Of a DNA stretch of 31,271 nt, positions 7,796 to 20,595 are shown in pieces. Each line of letters begins with the position of its first letter. Positions within the stretch are counted from its first letter, which is position 1. The translations under genes were made by a program, and so were the position numbers. Origin of the DNA: a virus; IMG/VR virus record IMGVR_UViG_3300046009_006356, positions 1-31,271 of that record. One strand, written 5' to 3'. The notes beneath the pieces are model-generated. The model saw only the letters and a list, made by a program, of their open reading frames with translations. It was not told the DNA's origin and made no database searches.

Positions 7796-8512
7796 TCACG
7801 GTGGACCTGGAAAGAAGCCTTTTGCTTTTTGGGCTTCCAAATATTGAAGATTCGTGGCTGTTGCGCCATCGACATAGAACTGATTCTTGATATTTAGGAC
7901 AAGATAATCTCTATCTGAAGACCAATTGTTGCTCAAACTGTAGTTGAAGGAGCCATCAATGTAGACATTAGGATCTGACTTGTCGAATACCCTTGCCGTG
8001 AAGTTTATGGGTATCCGAAACCCTACACCATTCCTGAAATAAGAGGCAGAACCTATGGTGGCATAGTTTTGCTCATCTATTTCAAAGTCTGGTGGAATAT
8101 TCAACGATGAGACATACTGATCCATTTCCCCTGTTCTTCCTATGAATTTTCCGGTATCTAGATTTAGAACCATGTCAGGGGAAAAATCACCTGTTACCAT
8201 CAAAAATCCAGGATCACCGAATGTTTCTGGCAAGCAAGTCAAAGAAATGCTCTTAATCAAGAACAATCCCCAATTGGAATCATCCGTTATGTCCTCTTGT
8301 TCAAAGTAAATTCTCGGAGGTTTTACGGGTGGAAAATCAGAACCACCATAAAAATAGGAGGAGGGAGCAATTGGAAAATGAAGTCTGAAGCAATCCGCAC
8401 TCAATCCAGACCCTGAAGGGACACTTACATTCATTCCATTAGGATAGTAAGTGCTTGGATTGACTTCAGAAAGAGTTCTGTATTTTCCCTGCCATAGGTA
8501 TTCCTGCGCCAT
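7796..8512 (-). CDS. Conserved phage protein of unknown function between gp5 and PAAR
   Basis: The protein is 238 aa, mostly beta-strand and proline/glycine/aromatic rich, without signal peptide or membrane helix. Recognisable stretches include FRLHFPIAPSSYFYGGSDFP near residues 43-62 and a C-terminal Ig-like-looking segment (NFTARVFDKSDPNVYIDGSF, then SSDRDYLVLNIKNQF). GGAGG lies 10 nt upstream of the ATG. The ATG overlaps the gp5 stop as TGATG, and the stop overlaps the Shine-Dalgarno of the PAAR gene, so all three are translationally linked. Position suggests a virion protein tied to the central spike, but I recognise no family with known function. Confidence 0.75.
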   Translation of the reverse strand: MAQEYLWQGKYRTLSEVNPSTYYPNGMNVSVPSGSGLSADCFRLHFPIAPSSYFYGGSDFPPVKPPRIYFEQEDITDDSNWGLFLIKSISLTCLPETFGDPGFLMVTGDFSPDMVLNLDTGKFIGRTGEMDQYVSSLNIPPDFEIDEQNYATIGSASYFRNGVGFRIPINFTARVFDKSDPNVYIDGSFNYSLSNNWSSDRDYLVLNIKNQFYVDGATATNLQYLEAQKAKGFFPGPP

Positions 8513-14321: not shown

Positions 14322-14905
14322 GCCAAAGAGATGCAATTGCCATTCTTCGGCAAATGTTTGCTGAGGGCATAGACATTACTTCACGAAAGGCTACTAACTG
14401 GCTTCGTGACCATTTGTCAGATGTAGGAGCAATAAACACAGAAAGCGTGATAAAAACCTCTGGCGGAGCGACCACCTTTGAACCTGGCAAAATATACCTG
14501 TTTGGTTACTCTCCCAAGACCGAACAAGACTTGAAGTATTATGATCGCTTTCCTCTGATTTTGCTCATAGATTACACCAAAGACGGCTTTCTTGGGCTAA
14601 ACTTTCATTACTTGCACCCAAATGATAGGGCTAACTTTTTCAACAATCTGCAAACCTATGTAAACGATGAGGAATTTGACAAAAATCCAAACGCTTTGTT
14701 CAGCATCAATTACGGCACTCTGAAGTCCGCAAAATCTTTGAAGTATTACAGACCATCAATAAAGAGATACTACTACAAAAACATCGTGTCAAAGGTCACT
14801 TTGGTTCCTCCCATTTATTGGAAATTCATGTTGTTTTTGCCCCTAGATAGATTTGCAAAAATAGTCAAAGAACAAGTCTGGAAAGAATCCAGAAGGAAAC
14901 TCTGA
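14318..14905 (+). CDS. Conserved phage protein, possible DNA-end or head/tail completion factor
   Basis: This 195-aa protein starts in an ATGA overlap with gp4 and ends in TGATG with the gp54-like gene. Residues 1-35 form a basic helical region, followed by a GKIYLFGYSPKTEQDLKYYD segment, RFPLILLIDYTKDGFLGLNF and HYLHPNDRANFFNNL. The C-terminus (KYYRPSIKRYYYKNIVSKVT, then YWKFMLFLPLDRF) is rich in Tyr and Lys. This YYDRFPL / GLNxHYL pattern is one I associate with a protein conserved in T4-like marine phages, but I cannot name it safely. In T4 the gene next to gp4 is gp2, the DNA end protector, so that is one candidate by position only. It is likely a virion-assembly protein. Confidence 0.7.
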   Translation: MSQRDAIAILRQMFAEGIDITSRKATNWLRDHLSDVGAINTESVIKTSGGATTFEPGKIYLFGYSPKTEQDLKYYDRFPLILLIDYTKDGFLGLNFHYLHPNDRANFFNNLQTYVNDEEFDKNPNALFSINYGTLKSAKSLKYYRPSIKRYYYKNIVSKVTLVPPIYWKFMLFLPLDRFAKIVKEQVWKESRRKL

Positions 14906-15966
14906 TGCCAACATTCTTTCAAACAGCCCTACAAGTTCTTCCGAGTTACATTAGTTCTTTCTTCCCGCCAAATGTAGGGGCAACGAAGTTCAGTCAGGAT
15001 TCGGCATGGCAAGAGTATCTAAGTGATGCTGGCCGCAATGGATTTGGTCTTCCCAACAGATTTTTGATGTTCATAGAAAGTCCTTGGCTGAATGAAAAGT
15101 TTGGGTTTACGCAAACGCAATTCGACAAGAGACTCACATATCGTTGTTGGAGCGTAAACATACCAGGTCAGTATTTCTCAAAGTTGGAACGAGACATTGC
15201 TGGACCAGTTCGCAGAATACCGTATACGACCACTTTTGAAGAAGATATTACCATGCAGTTTTATTGTTCTCCTGACATGGCAGAATTCGGATTCATCAAA
15301 AAGTGGATGGATAGCATACTGAATCCCGTATCCAGATATGCCGCATTCTACGATGACTTTGCAAAGGACACCAAGGCAACCCTGCTTTTCATACCAAACA
15401 ACTTGAAGACATTGGCTGACATACAAGAGATGTTTACGCAAAACAAACTCAGAGGATTGAGATTTACGGAACTCTATCCGACAAGTTTGAGAGTAAATGG
15501 CGGAACTGTAGAGTGGGCTTCTTCAAGCAAACCAACATTCATACAGGTTGGGTTTGCCTTCAGAGAGGCAGTTGACATAACAACATACGATGCCGAAGTA
15601 AGTAAGCAATTACGAGACCTTGCCGATATTGCCGCAAATCCTCTTTCAAGCAATCTGACCAAGTTCATGGAGAGCGAAGGAATAGGAATGGAAACCAACA
15701 TCGGATTGGATGGAAATGTCGTTACAAATGCAGGAACTCAATCTGGCATACTAGGCAACAGCGAAGTCGGACAGAGCGCAGTTACACGGGGAATAGCACC
15801 ATTGCCAGGAAACGGTCAGTTGTATGCAGACGGAGGAACGGTCAAAACCGTGGATCTTGGAGGTCTGGAGACATTGGAATCTGCCGGTGGCATAGGAGCC
15901 GGTGGGGCAGGGAACTTCCCTGCCGGTTCTCCCTTTGCCAACAATGGCGGCGTTTCTGTTGCGTAA
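14905..15966 (+). CDS. 54: gp54-like baseplate/tail-tube junction protein
   Basis: The product is 353 aa (T4 gp54 is 320). Residues ~45-245 have the tube-protein fold shared by gp19, gp48 and gp54: GLPNRFLMFIESPWLNEKFG, TYRCWSVNIPGQYFSKLERD, YTTTFEEDITMQFYCSPDMA, then a KKWMDSILNPVSRYAAFYDD helix. It continues with ELYPTSLRVNGGTVEWASSS and FIQVGFAFREAVDI. gp54 caps gp48 and initiates tube assembly. The last ~100 residues are Gly/Asn/Thr-rich and low in complexity. It starts in a TGATG overlap. It stands away from gp48 on the opposite strand, unlike T4. gp19-type tube protein is the main alternative, but the low-complexity tail and context favour gp54. Confidence 0.7.
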   Translation: MPTFFQTALQVLPSYISSFFPPNVGATKFSQDSAWQEYLSDAGRNGFGLPNRFLMFIESPWLNEKFGFTQTQFDKRLTYRCWSVNIPGQYFSKLERDIAGPVRRIPYTTTFEEDITMQFYCSPDMAEFGFIKKWMDSILNPVSRYAAFYDDFAKDTKATLLFIPNNLKTLADIQEMFTQNKLRGLRFTELYPTSLRVNGGTVEWASSSKPTFIQVGFAFREAVDITTYDAEVSKQLRDLADIAANPLSSNLTKFMESEGIGMETNIGLDGNVVTNAGTQSGILGNSEVGQSAVTRGIAPLPGNGQLYADGGTVKTVDLGGLETLESAGGIGAGGAGNFPAGSPFANNGGVSVA

Positions 15967-16000: not shown

Positions 16001-16729
16001 ATGGCTATACCAATTATCGCTACACCAACCTATGAATTGACATTGCCCTCTACCAAGAAAAAGATCAAGTATCGTCCTTTCTTGGTCAAAGAAGAAAAAA
16101 TGCTGCTTCTTGCTATGGAATCCAAGGATCCAAAGCAAATTCAAAGCACAAGCAAGGAAGTCATCAAGAACTGCACCTTTGGAGAAGTAGATGTAACCAC
16201 ATCTCCTCCGTTTGACATCGAATATATCCTTCTTCAACTTCGAATTCATTCAGTCGGAGAGAAGGTTTCGACAAAACTCAAGTGTTCCAAGTGCGAGACT
16301 CCAAATGCCGTGGAAATAGATTTGAAATCAATTGGAGTATCCGAAAGCACCAATCATACCAACACCATAAAGTTGACAGATAAAATGGGAGTCATCATGA
16401 GATACCCAAACATGGGAGATGATGAACTTCTTCAGACTGCAAATGCCGATGAAAAAGATGATCCCATCAAAAACGCAGAGATGTCAATGAAATTGATTGC
16501 TTCTTGCATAGAAGTAATCTATGACGGAGACAAGACATATCCAACCAAGAATTTCAGCAAGGAAGAGATAAACGAATTCATCGAAAATCTTTCTCAAGGT
16601 ATGTTTCAAAAGTTGATTGCATTTTTTCAGGATATGCCTGCCATCAAGCACAACTTGCAGTTTAAGTGTGAAAAGTGCGAACACGAAAACAACATAACAT
16701 TGCGAGGTATTCAGGATTTTTTTACTTGA
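16001..16729 (+). CDS. 26: gp26-like baseplate hub assembly protein (T4_baseplate family)
   Basis: The 242-aa sequence begins AIPIIATPTYELTLPSTKKK with IKYRPFLVKEEKMLLLAMES, the standard opening of T4-like gp26. NCTFGEVDVTTSPPFDIEYI and QLRIHSVGEKVSTKLKC follow. Paired cysteines C95/C98 and C223/C226 suggest a zinc-ribbon-like element. gp26 is an assembly factor of the hub that acts near the tape measure. The last codons read GAT TTT TTT ACT TGA with a run of seven T at 16717-16723. This is a canonical -1 slippery heptamer directly before the stop, and the -1 frame continues into the next ORF (see findings). It starts after a strong AAGGAG. Confidence 0.9.
   Translation: MAIPIIATPTYELTLPSTKKKIKYRPFLVKEEKMLLLAMESKDPKQIQSTSKEVIKNCTFGEVDVTTSPPFDIEYILLQLRIHSVGEKVSTKLKCSKCETPNAVEIDLKSIGVSESTNHTNTIKLTDKMGVIMRYPNMGDDELLQTANADEKDDPIKNAEMSMKLIASCIEVIYDGDKTYPTKNFSKEEINEFIENLSQGMFQKLIAFFQDMPAIKHNLQFKCEKCEHENNITLRGIQDFFT
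16717..16723 (+). promoter_or_regulatory. Candidate -1 ribosomal frameshift site (T TTT TTT)
   Basis: In the gp26 frame the heptamer is read T-TTT-TTT. Slippage of both tRNAs by -1 would continue with TAC TTG ATG ATG and fuse 241 gp26 residues to the following small ORF, giving about 307 aa. The zero-frame stop is only one codon further on. I see no strong downstream pseudoknot. Confidence 0.5.
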
Positions 16730-16923
16730 TGATGCATTATGACGGACTTGCGAACATGATGCAGACAAACTTCATAATGATGAAAGAACACAATTTCAGT
16801 CTCACGGAACTAGAAAACATGATTCCGTGGGAAAGGCAAATTTACATCGGATTGTTGGTTAACTATGTGAAAGAGCAAAAGGAGAACATGGATCAACAGC
16901 AGGCTTCGTTGAAAACAGGTTAA
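16729..16923 (+). CDS. Small hub/tape-measure chaperone-like ORF (possible frameshift extension of gp26)
   Basis: The ORF codes for 64 aa from the ATG pair in the TGATGATG overlap with the gp26 stop. It is mostly helical and reads GLANMMQTNFIMMKEHNFSL followed by ENMIPWERQIYIGLLVNYV. Short proteins with the LTELENMIPWER-type signature lie between gp26 and the tape measure in T4-like marine phages. In T4, gp51 is the hub assembly factor next to gp26, but I cannot show homology. The frame is open upstream to at least 16675, so it can be reached by -1 frameshifting as well as by reinitiation. The layout matches the G/GT chaperones that precede tape measure genes in many long-tailed phages. Confidence 0.75.
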   Translation: MMHYDGLANMMQTNFIMMKEHNFSLTELENMIPWERQIYIGLLVNYVKEQKENMDQQQASLKTG

Positions 16924-16938
16924 GCCCGCAAAGGACAA

Positions 16939-19611
16939 ATGGCAGAAGAATCACCGCTTGGTAATCCATTAAACGAAAAAACTGTTGCAGATATGAGCAA
17001 CAAGTTGTCTTCTGCAAACAAGATACTTGCGGAGATAGCAGAGCAGTCCAACGATACCGGAGAATCAATTGGTAATCTTCTTCGTAATGAAAAAACCCTT
17101 CTTGAAGAAACAAAAAACACGAACAAGAACATAAAGGAAATTGCCGATTCGAATCGCAGAATGGCTCATGCGGCAGAAGAAGAGCGCAGAGAATCCAAAA
17201 AGGCAGGAGGAGCGGGTTCCATAGGCACAACAGGATTTGGCGCACAAATGAAAGAATCAATGAAGGAAGCAATGAAGGGGGTTGCTCCGATTTATGCAAA
17301 TGCGACAAATCCTCTAAAGACAATGATGACCGAACTACTAAAGAAAAGCAGCCTTGGGGGTGGTTCGGGTGGTCTTTTCGGAATGGGTGGATCCAATGCA
17401 GGAATACTGGGAACGGCTGTTGCCGGTTCTGCTGGATTTTTAATCGGATTCCTTACTCCCGTGATCAATTCCTACAAGACATTGTTCATGTCTTTTTATG
17501 ACTTGATTTCTCCCATTTTGAAAGGAATAGGATCATTGGGGAAATCCATTTTCACTTTCTTTATGGAAACATTTCCCCTCGCTGACGAGTTAAAAGGACT
17601 GTCCAAAGGTCTTGTCGATACCTTCAAGATTTTGAGCGATATGCTGATGTCGGGTGTCAAATTCATAGGCAACGGTATTGACTATGGCTTGATTTTGCTG
17701 CGTAGAACTTTTGGTATGAACATTCCCAGACTAGAAACCATACTGAACTTTTTTGGAGACATTTTTACGGGGTTTTCTAGCAAAATAGGCAGTTTCTTGA
17801 GTGCCGATGGCATTTTGTATGGCACCATGAATGCAATTCAGAAAATCTTCGGAGAAGGAGCATTAAATGTCTTCGTGAAGGCATTTGAATTTGGAGAAAA
17901 ACTTGCAAAGTTCCTTCCTTTCCTTACGGTCATTCCTACGGCAATAGAAACCATAGTGGCTGCATTTGAGAAGTTTGAAACAGAAGGGTTCAAAGGAGTC
18001 TTCAAGGCAATCATGGTCGGACTGCTCAAGGGAGTTGTTGCATTCTTTACTCTAGGATTGTCTGATTTTGCCCTAGATTTCGAGAAGATGTATGCGACTC
18101 TTTCGAACAGTCTAGATGGACTATTTGAGCAATTTAGTGCTGGTTTTGATTTAGTGGTGGATGTCTTTGAATCGTTGTTTGCAACAGTTATGCAACTATG
18201 GGATGGCGTTCTGAAACCAATTTTCACTTCTTTGTATGAGGATGCATTAAAACCCATAATGGAAACACTCAGCATGATTGGTGATTTTGCCATGATACTT
18301 TTTGATATGGTAGTTACCATTCTGAACCCAGTCATTGCCATCGCAAGATTTGCATTCAAAGTAATATTCGAAGTAGTAAAGGTTGTTTGGAATTTCCTCA
18401 TCTATCCAATAATCGAACTTTTGGTTCCGGTCTTCAAGTTCTTGTTTAAGACCATAGGAATACTCATGATTCCCATACAGGCTATTGTAGGTGCGCTGGT
18501 AGTCATGGTAGGTAATTTCTGGGAGAAATTCCTTAAACCCATATTGAATTGGATAACAGACCTTTTTTCGGCAGGAGCGGAAATGGGATCGTTGTCCGAT
18601 ATGATAAGCGAAGCCTTGGCATATTGGGGAGACATCATAAAAGCAGGATGGAATTTCATTATAGGCTATTATGAGATGATCACGGATACGATTGCAGATG
18701 CAATGTTATGGTGGTATGACCTTATCGTAGAAACATGGGATGCGATATACAATATTTGGGACAAGACTACGACAATGATTGCCGATGCAATGTTATGGTG
18801 GGCAGACCTGATCACGGAAGCATGGAACTACATCTATGGTCTTTGGGACACCACTACGAGTCTTCTTGCAGACGGTATGCTCATTTGGGCAGGGTGGATA
18901 CAAGATGCATGGAACTACATCTATGGTCTTTGGGATTCTCTTACCGATGCTCTTGCGTATGGCATTCTTTGGTGGCACGAAAAGATAACAGATGCATGGA
19001 ACTATGTTGTGAGTCTTTGGGAATTTGCTGTTGATGCCTTGGCAGAATCGTTAGAGCCAATTGTAAGCCCTATCATGGACTTTTTCGATTATGTCGGGCA
19101 AGTATTTAATGGATTGAAAGAGTATGCAAGCAGCCTAGTGTCTTGGATACCTGGACTTGGCGGCGGCGGAGAAGCAAAGGCATCTGAAATAAAAGAGGCT
19201 ACTCCAGGAGAAGTAGGTCCAATTAGAGCGGCTGCTCTTAGGATGAAAGCCCAAGAAGAGAGCAGACAATTTGTAGGAACGAGCGCAGGAGGAGAAGTCC
19301 TTACTTCAAAAAAGAAAAGTAGAAGAGAAGAGGACGAAGAATCTAGAAGAAGACTGCAAGACATTATTGCAAGAGAAGAAGCGCAATACGGTAAAGAAGG
19401 TGCGGCTGCTTTGCGAGATGCAGCCAGACAACAAATGGCGGCAGGAGGCGGTGCTGCCGGTGGCGCAGGAATATCAAGTGTAGTGATCAACAACGCACCA
19501 ACAACAAACATCGCTGCTGGTGGCGGTGGACAAGCAGCAGCGATACCGGTGCCGCTATCTCCAAATCCGATCCGCCATGCAGATCCAACTAGAGCAATGA
19601 TATCTTACTAA
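16939..19611 (+). CDS. 29: Tape measure protein (T4 gp29 functional equivalent)
   Basis: The protein is 890 aa. Residues 1-100 are a polar coiled-coil-like region (LSSANKILAEIAEQSND and LLEETKNTNKNIKEIADSNR). Then comes a long alternating hydrophobic helical body with likely membrane-inserting segments near 150-215 (TAVAGSAGFLIGFLTPVINS). Residues 557-701 are five tandem 29-aa repeats rich in Trp. The end is charged and then Gly/Ala-rich (VVINNAPTTNIAAGGGGQ), as is common in tape measures. It sets tail length and is ejected through the tube. AAAGGA lies before the ATG. T4 gp29 is 590 aa, so a longer tail or extra domains are expected. Assignment rests on size, composition and position after gp26 rather than on specific motifs. 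Confidence 0.85.
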   Translation: MAEESPLGNPLNEKTVADMSNKLSSANKILAEIAEQSNDTGESIGNLLRNEKTLLEETKNTNKNIKEIADSNRRMAHAAEEERRESKKAGGAGSIGTTGFGAQMKESMKEAMKGVAPIYANATNPLKTMMTELLKKSSLGGGSGGLFGMGGSNAGILGTAVAGSAGFLIGFLTPVINSYKTLFMSFYDLISPILKGIGSLGKSIFTFFMETFPLADELKGLSKGLVDTFKILSDMLMSGVKFIGNGIDYGLILLRRTFGMNIPRLETILNFFGDIFTGFSSKIGSFLSADGILYGTMNAIQKIFGEGALNVFVKAFEFGEKLAKFLPFLTVIPTAIETIVAAFEKFETEGFKGVFKAIMVGLLKGVVAFFTLGLSDFALDFEKMYATLSNSLDGLFEQFSAGFDLVVDVFESLFATVMQLWDGVLKPIFTSLYEDALKPIMETLSMIGDFAMILFDMVVTILNPVIAIARFAFKVIFEVVKVVWNFLIYPIIELLVPVFKFLFKTIGILMIPIQAIVGALVVMVGNFWEKFLKPILNWITDLFSAGAEMGSLSDMISEALAYWGDIIKAGWNFIIGYYEMITDTIADAMLWWYDLIVETWDAIYNIWDKTTTMIADAMLWWADLITEAWNYIYGLWDTTTSLLADGMLIWAGWIQDAWNYIYGLWDSLTDALAYGILWWHEKITDAWNYVVSLWEFAVDALAESLEPIVSPIMDFFDYVGQVFNGLKEYASSLVSWIPGLGGGGEAKASEIKEATPGEVGPIRAAALRMKAQEESRQFVGTSAGGEVLTSKKKSRREEDEESRRRLQDIIAREEAQYGKEGAAALRDAARQQMAAGGGAAGGAGISSVVINNAPTTNIAAGGGGQAAAIPVPLSPNPIRHADPTRAMISY
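18607..19041 (+). repeat. Five tandem 87-bp (29-aa) repeats in the tape measure gene
   Basis: Units begin at 18607, 18694, 18781, 18868 and 18955. The translated units share a pattern A-D-x-M-L-W-W-x-D-L-I-x-x-A-W-N-Y-I-Y-G. Units 2 and 3 are the most alike, and the first is the most diverged. The period is exact, with no indels. Confidence 0.9.
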
Positions 19612-19665: not shown

Positions 19666-20595
19666 TCAGTCCTCTTCCGCCAACTTGCGGAAGTAAGCCA
19701 AGGCATCTTCCTCCCCATCTCCATCGTCAGCAGCCTTTGGAGCAGGCTTCTTGGCAGCAGGCTTGACTGCTTCCTCGGTAGCCTTGTTGCTCTTGGCAAA
19801 CTTCTGTGATAGAGACTCGCGTACAGGCTCGTCATCTGCCTTCTTCTCGGGGGCTTCCGTGAAGAGAACAGTATGCAGACGATCCTTGAGTTCATCATAG
19901 GACTTGAATTGATCGGGAGCAACAAACAGTTGCAAGGAATGCTCCTTCTTCCAAAGAGCCTCCAACTCCGAATCCTCCCCGTCAAGCAGGGCAGACGATG
20001 CTTCAAACGAACTCTTCTCGTAGTTGACATAGCCACCGTCACCGATAGTAGCCTTCAACTTGAAGTTGCATCCCTGCCAGAAGTCGAACGGATTGATCGG
20101 CTTCTCGTCATCAAACTTCGGGTTCATCTTGTCGTTGATCTTCTCGAAAATCTTGGCACCATACTTGAAGAGAAACACCTTGCCCTCGTTTTCGGGATGA
20201 GCAGGATCCTTCACAACAAGAATGTTGCTGATGTACGACAACTTGCGCTTTCTGTCTCGGGCAATGGTCTTGTCCGATTCGATACCGCTATTCCAAAGTT
20301 CGTTGTTGCCTTCGCAGATTGGGCACTTCTTGCCAATCGTAGTTGGGCAGTTCTCAATCATCCAACCGCCCTTACCCTTGAACCCGTGCGAGAATACCCG
20401 CACCCAAGGAATCTCTTCGCCTTCAATGGCAGGAAGGAAGCGAATCACCGCATAGCCATTGCCAGCCTTGTCTCGCTCTAGTGACCAAAACCGGTCATCC
20501 TTCTCGTATCCCCCCTTGCTGTTCAACTTCTCCATTTCCTTGGAGAGTTGTTCTGTCATTGTCTTTGACTTCTTCTTGAGGTCTGAAAATCCCAT
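19666..20595 (-). CDS. 32: Single-stranded DNA-binding protein gp32
   Basis: The protein is 309 aa from the ATG at 20595; an ATG three codons upstream lies only one base from AAGGA, too close. It has the gp32 layout: a basic N-terminal helix for cooperativity, an OB-fold core (DDRFWSLERDKAGNGYAVIR, FLPAIEGEEIPWVRVFSHGF), a His-Cys3 zinc site (H70, C83, C91, C94) and RKLSYISNILVVKDPAHPEN. A Lys/Ala linker and an acidic C-terminal tail (DDGDGEEDALAYFRKLAEED) follow; the tail recruits replication partners in T4. It coats template DNA in replication, recombination and repair. gp59, its partner, lies directly upstream as in T4. T4 gp32 represses its own translation, and the leader here is unstructured, which would allow that. 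Confidence 0.97.
   Translation of the reverse strand: MGFSDLKKKSKTMTEQLSKEMEKLNSKGGYEKDDRFWSLERDKAGNGYAVIRFLPAIEGEEIPWVRVFSHGFKGKGGWMIENCPTTIGKKCPICEGNNELWNSGIESDKTIARDRKRKLSYISNILVVKDPAHPENEGKVFLFKYGAKIFEKINDKMNPKFDDEKPINPFDFWQGCNFKLKATIGDGGYVNYEKSSFEASSALLDGEDSELEALWKKEHSLQLFVAPDQFKSYDELKDRLHTVLFTEAPEKKADDEPVRESLSQKFAKSNKATEEAVKPAAKKPAPKAADDGDGEEDALAYFRKLAEED

Follow-up and report, generated by a model that had tools for sequence, protein, structure and literature searches.

The window analysed here is the whole of the IMG/VR record IMGVR_UViG_3300046009_006356 (31,271 bases, positions 1 to 31,271) from an uncultured virus, and it contains a set of T4-like tail and neck genes that encode baseplate hub/tail lysozyme, wedge, tail tube cap, head closure (gp4-like), DNA end protector (gp2-like), and tail tube-like proteins. 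The gene for the tail tube-like protein (14905–15966, plus strand; phrog_45 tail tube, E = 1e-14) lies directly 5' of a plus-strand gene for a 242-aa gp26 protein (16001–16729), which matches the Pfam model T4_baseplate (PF12322, E = 3.4e-67) and phrog_150 (E = 6.5e-73). A tape measure protein gene follows on the plus strand at 16939–19611, where it matches tape measure phrogs (best E = 4e-11), consistent with the initial annotation, which had placed gp26 just before the tape measure gene. Two further ORFs that adjoin the tail genes, at 7796–8512 (minus strand, 238 aa) and 19873–20481 (plus strand, 202 aa), had no PHROG match.

The 3' end of gp26 reads ATT CAG GAT TTT TTT ACT TGA, and the seven T at 16717–16723 (plus strand) constitute a slippery heptamer T TTT TTT in the X-XXY-YYZ phase, one codon before the zero-frame stop TGA at 16727–16729. 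In the window translation the –1 frame has no stop between 16675 and the one at 16921–16923, and the part of it that extends gp26 (16720–16923, plus strand) matches phrog_634, gp51 "baseplate hub assembly catalyst" (E = 6.5e-24), which makes a gp51-type C-terminal domain available in this frame. Slipping back by one base would give a fusion of 307 aa with the junction GIQDFF-YLMMHY in the computed translation. The same frame contains an ORF (16729–16923, plus strand) of 64 aa from the ATG at 16729, or 63 aa from the ATG at 16732, and the first of these ATGs overlaps the gp26 stop in TGATGATG at 16727-16734, both in the window and in its closest relative, L001. The initial annotation had described the heptamer, its phase, the open –1 frame with a 64-aa ORF and a fusion of ~307 aa, and all of its coordinates hold. 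Runs of seven T are rare in the window (3 versus 21 expected from shuffles), and among 22 window genes checked only gp26 combines an in-phase heptamer near its stop with a long –1 extension.

Relatives were gathered from IMG/VR using several queries and from named phages, and the main set comprises 179 loci with a complete gp26 end that form 80 clusters at 80% protein identity. The initial annotation had reasoned that a functional site should recur in related phages in the same phase and in front of an open –1 frame, and the alignment of gp26 3' ends revealed this pattern: 171 of the 179 loci and 73 of the 80 clusters have T TTT TTN at the gp26 end with an identical phase. It had also named patterns that would speak against slippage; among direct relatives, no other codon for Phe, Asp, Asn, Ser, or Ala breaks the heptamer, and the –1 frame runs from the site into the ORF without a stop. 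The slip site occurs as TTTTTC in 51 clusters, TTTTTT in 21, and TTTTTA in one; its first Phe codon is TTT in 73/73, and the codon 5' of the heptamer is always NNT (GAT, AAT, AGT, TCT, GCT, CAT, or ACT) with no other synonym used. With clusters taken as independent, the probability of such a codon choice given gp26 codon usage is ~1e-29 for the 73 clusters and 1e-17 for 45 clusters at 60% identity, whereas other Phe–Phe pairs in the same genes have a slip-like context in only 8 of 76 cases. Judged by this codon choice, the heptamer at the gp26 end is not a product of chance.

These comparisons also bear on two explanations that do not involve the ribosome. Slippage of RNA polymerase on the T run could likewise join the two frames, and the window does carry seven consecutive T; however, polymerase slippage needs no phase and usually needs a longer run, whereas 51 of the 73 clusters have T TTT TTC with six T only and the phase needed for tRNA re-pairing is always kept. 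We therefore rejected this explanation as highly improbable. Homopolymers are also prone to sequencing and assembly errors, which could split one real gene into two, but the same frame relation recurs in 171 loci, which come from many independent assemblies and include cultured isolates, and the zero-frame stop, for which all three stop kinds are used, lies from 0 to 8 codons past the heptamer. The comparison across these loci leaves practically no chance that such an error created the arrangement, and it was likewise rejected.

From the slip onward, the –1 frame stays open for 57–75 codons in each of the 73 heptamer clusters, while the +1 frame mostly closes early. It encodes one conserved domain with the consensus FFRxxLxHxSLxNxYxTNFxLMQHHKYSLxELENMxPWERxIY, for which a Pfam search found no model, and differences between relatives fall mainly on the third position of its codons (3,051, 2,340, and 4,997 at positions 1, 2, and 3, respectively). 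The start codons available in this frame are important for assessing the possibility that two separate proteins are made by translational coupling, that is, by reinitiation on the overlapping ATG, resulting in a free gp51-like peptide and no fusion. The presence of TGATGATG in the window and in L001 favors coupling, as does the annotation of gp51 as a gene of its own in database records. However, 56 of the 73 clusters have no ATG before –1 codon 11, even though the protein sequence encoded by these codons is conserved; their first ATG falls most often at codon 20 or 21, within the conserved block, and the annotated gp51 start of S-RIM2 is likewise placed ~20 codons into it. When GTG and TTG are counted along with ATG, 49 of the 73 clusters lack any such codon before –1 codon 10. 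Because the first stretch is conserved without an early ATG, reinitiation cannot replace slippage in those 56 clusters, and to judge from the codons at hand this stretch could hardly be translated there otherwise than by frameshifting. Coupling also leaves the heptamer and its phase unexplained, and T4 gp51 is a full fusion (discussed later). Reinitiation as the sole mechanism was therefore rejected and is, in our assessment, very improbable.

It is less improbable, though still unlikely, that both mechanisms operate in the lineage of the window, with a frameshift fusion made alongside a free 64-aa domain that arises by reinitiation. Because the ATG overlaps the gp26 stop in the window and in L001, a free 64-aa protein is possible there, and 17 of the 73 clusters have an ATG within the first six –1 codons. 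On the other hand, the nearest SD-like sequence, AGGA, lies 12–15 nt upstream of the two ATGs, which is further than usual, and most relatives manage without such a start.

T4 gp51 consists of a gp26-like domain (residues 1–201, PF12322, E = 3.9e-52) followed by a domain of the –1 type, and a profile built from the 73 –1 domains matches T4 gp51 with an i-Evalue of 2.9e-7 in a set of 10 sequences. In the profile alignment the second Phe of the slip site aligns with F200 of T4 gp51. Because the junction in T4 gp51 thus falls at the slip site, T4 gp51 looks like a frameshift fusion that has been frozen in frame, and sequence comparison supports the homology of the two parts in the window to T4 gp26 and gp51.

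The structure of gp26 was predicted from an alignment of the window and related loci that excluded named phage records, and the resulting model has a mean pLDDT of 90.6. The best VIA-align match of this model was the HK97 tail assembly chaperone 2ob9 (residues 1–85), with a Z score of 7.2, which lies below Z 8 and below the level that is safe on its own; the second was YqbN (3klu, Z 6.6), and the next scored 3.6, so that the two leading matches stand well clear of the others but cover residues 1–87 only. A Foldseek search of the predicted model against the PDB returned nothing significant (E 1.2), and a sequence search for a relative with a solved structure found none. In the predicted model, the N-terminal fold of gp26 is thus closest to that of a tail assembly chaperone, and this putatively HK97-like fold together with the position before the tape measure gene supports a scheme with a short and a long chaperone of the lambda G/GT type. 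The record of Dickeya phage LIMEstone1 describes its gp26 (L094, 1450–2256) as a structural protein whose status is confirmed. Since virions contain neither lambda G nor GT (PMC5009743), the structural assignment in LIMEstone1 counts against the explanation by a chaperone frameshift.

Overall, we consider it very likely that a programmed –1 ribosomal frameshift yields two tail assembly chaperones from this locus, the short gp26 and the long gp26-gp51. Most ribosomes would read gp26 to the TGA and release the short chaperone of 242 aa. A minority would slip one base back at T TTT TTT, where both tRNAs could re-pair on TTT, and would bypass the TGA and continue in the –1 frame to give the long chaperone of 307 aa, with the gp51-like domain as its last 66 residues. 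If lambda G and GT are a guide, the gp26 part common to both forms would coat the product of the tape measure gene that follows, which is the presumed client of the chaperones, and the additional gp51-like domain would bring in tail tube subunits. The site, its phase, and the open and conserved –1 frame are read in the sequences themselves; from them we infer that slippage occurs, and its rate, the roles of stimulators, and the binding partners are described here in the same conditional sense.

Two elements near the heptamer are candidate stimulators of slippage. An SD-like GAGG is found at 16704–16707 (plus strand), 9 nt 5' of the heptamer, and 26 relatives have GAGG exactly 10 nt 5' of theirs. 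Where codon –5 encodes Glu, GAG is used in 26 of 41 cases, compared with 27% elsewhere in gp26 (p = 8e-7). Codon –4 shows an excess of GGG (13 of 70 versus 6%, p = 2e-4). Downstream, a predicted RNA hairpin at 16733–16763 (plus strand) begins 9 nt 3' of the heptamer in the window, with a folding z-score of –3.5 and none of 200 shuffles folding as well. The downstream segments of single relatives fold somewhat better than controls (mean z of –1.5 versus –0.5), but RNAalifold identified no common structure in 73 gapless downstream segments, and the position of the hairpin is not conserved in relatives. Both the SD-like motif and the hairpin are putative frameshift stimulators. The layout in the window resembles that of the –1 frameshift in E. 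coli dnaX, which has a heptamer, an SD-like element ~10 nt upstream, and a hairpin downstream. However, dnaX is a cellular gene with the heptamer A AAA AAG and its shifted product is the shorter one, whereas the window has T TTT TTT in a phage gene and the shifted product would be longer.

The frameshift in lambda G/GT, reportedly described by Levin in 1993 and Xu in 2004, resembles the arrangement in the window in that the –1 shift lies close to the 3' end of a small gene that immediately precedes the tape measure gene, two products of different length result, and the fold is chaperone-like (for the window, putatively so in the predicted model). The two differ in that lambda is a siphovirus and the window virus a myovirus, in their slippery heptamers (G GGA AAG in lambda), and in the size of window gp26, which exceeds that of the similar HK97 chaperone domain; no sequence relation between the two systems emerged in this analysis. 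A 2016 review described the G-T shift as conserved in long-tailed phages "except T4" (PMC5009743). The initial annotation had known of no shift reported for T4-like gp26, but this no longer stands: as cited in PMC10885494 and PMC12846349, Vladimirov, Gautam and Davidson 2022 (Virology 566:9–15) identified T4-like chaperones, and PMC12846349 credits them with polyT slippery –1 signals in T4-like chaperone genes. According to the summary of the same work in the PRFect paper, some T4-like phages use two genes, one short and one long, in place of a shift (PMC10885494). The T4-like chaperones (gp26 short, gp51 long) belong to the same protein family and have the same domain order as those in the window, but T4 encodes the long form separately in gp51, a gene transcribed divergently from gp26, whereas the window has one gene and a probable shift. 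A conserved –1 shift with a T-rich GTTTTT motif has also been reported for the chaperone of contractile-tail phages of the Vandenendeviridae and Andersonviridae, whose long –1 ORF is usually annotated as hypothetical (PMC12846349); these are other families, and their motif differs from the full T TTT TTY heptamer.

A literature search yielded no description of the gp26 shift beyond Vladimirov et al. 2022 as cited by later papers. Novelty is thus modest, because –1 chaperone shifts are well known in long-tailed phages and have already been noted for T4-like phages; what is new at the level of sequence comparison is the breadth of conservation, the SD-like element ~10 nt upstream, and the clade-specific loss of the heptamer. 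None of the named annotated records with the heptamer that were inspected marks a joined product; the extension of the long chaperone is annotated as a separate short gene or a hypothetical protein. Sullivan 2010 describes cyanophage gp51 as ~20% of the length of T4 gp51 and without the first ~200 residues (PMC3037559), and a frameshift offers an explanation for this short gp51. It would also bring gp26 and gp51, the T4-type "baseplate hub" proteins, into the general scheme of tail chaperones, and the slip site can be tested directly in a group to which abundant marine viruses belong.

The heptamer is present in the marine cyanophages S-PM2, S-ShM2, P-HM1, and S-RIM2 and pelagiphage Mosig, as well as in Sinorhizobium phage phiM12, Stenotrophomonas phage Bhz51, Agrobacterium phage OLIVR6, Vibrio phage R10Z (Schizotequatrovirus), EniLVp02, and Aeromonas phage phiAS5. 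By contrast, the gp26 ends of T4, RB49, and Konradin have no heptamer and the –1 frame past gp26 lacks the domain; in these phages gp51 is a separate, divergent gene. The proposal in the initial annotation that gp26 represents the lambda G/GT system in a T4-like form is supported for the window and its relatives, including by the predicted similarity of the N-terminal domain to the HK97 chaperone, and T4 gp26 and gp51 do correspond to a short and a long form; in T4 itself, however, these come from two genes and gp26 has no slip site.

The Ackermannviridae and Vibrio phage D506 have no heptamer but retain the conserved –1 domain, in a frame open for 50–64 codons. Their sites read GA(A/G) ATT TTC, TCA CTT TTC, or AAC CTT TTT, in which only a T-TTY tetramer is left, and this tetramer is always kept just before the zero-frame stop (L090, L091, L093–L095, and L186–L203). 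Slippage on a single codon is possible at these sites, as is reinitiation (TAATG in the LIMEstone-like phages). In a tree of 58 proteins with the root unplaced, T4-type gp26 and gp51 group together (98/95) and the Ackermannviridae are nested among heptamer users. We lean slightly toward the view that a single chaperone pair is produced by three routes in the T4 superfamily: by the T TTT TTY heptamer in most lineages, including that of the window; by a degenerate T-TTY site with a still conserved –1 ORF in the Ackermannviridae; and by gene duplication with the fusion fixed in frame, as T4 gp51 joined at the old slip site would suggest, after which T4 gp26 would have lost the slip site and the extension. 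Because the root is unplaced, the direction of these changes is our inference; if this reading is correct, gene duplication replaced a programmed frameshift at least once. A useful natural control is provided by L208, in which a T4-type gp26 has GAG TTT TTT AAA at its end, so that X is G and the heptamer is broken, and the –1 frame lacks the gp51 domain. In the Stenotrophomonas jumbo phage CM1 (L098), near 2100–2150, the match to gp26 is nonsignificant (E = 6); its sequence AGT TTT TTT ATC and a long –1 ORF with a PYER motif, like PWER, suggest that it is perhaps a remote relative with the same arrangement.
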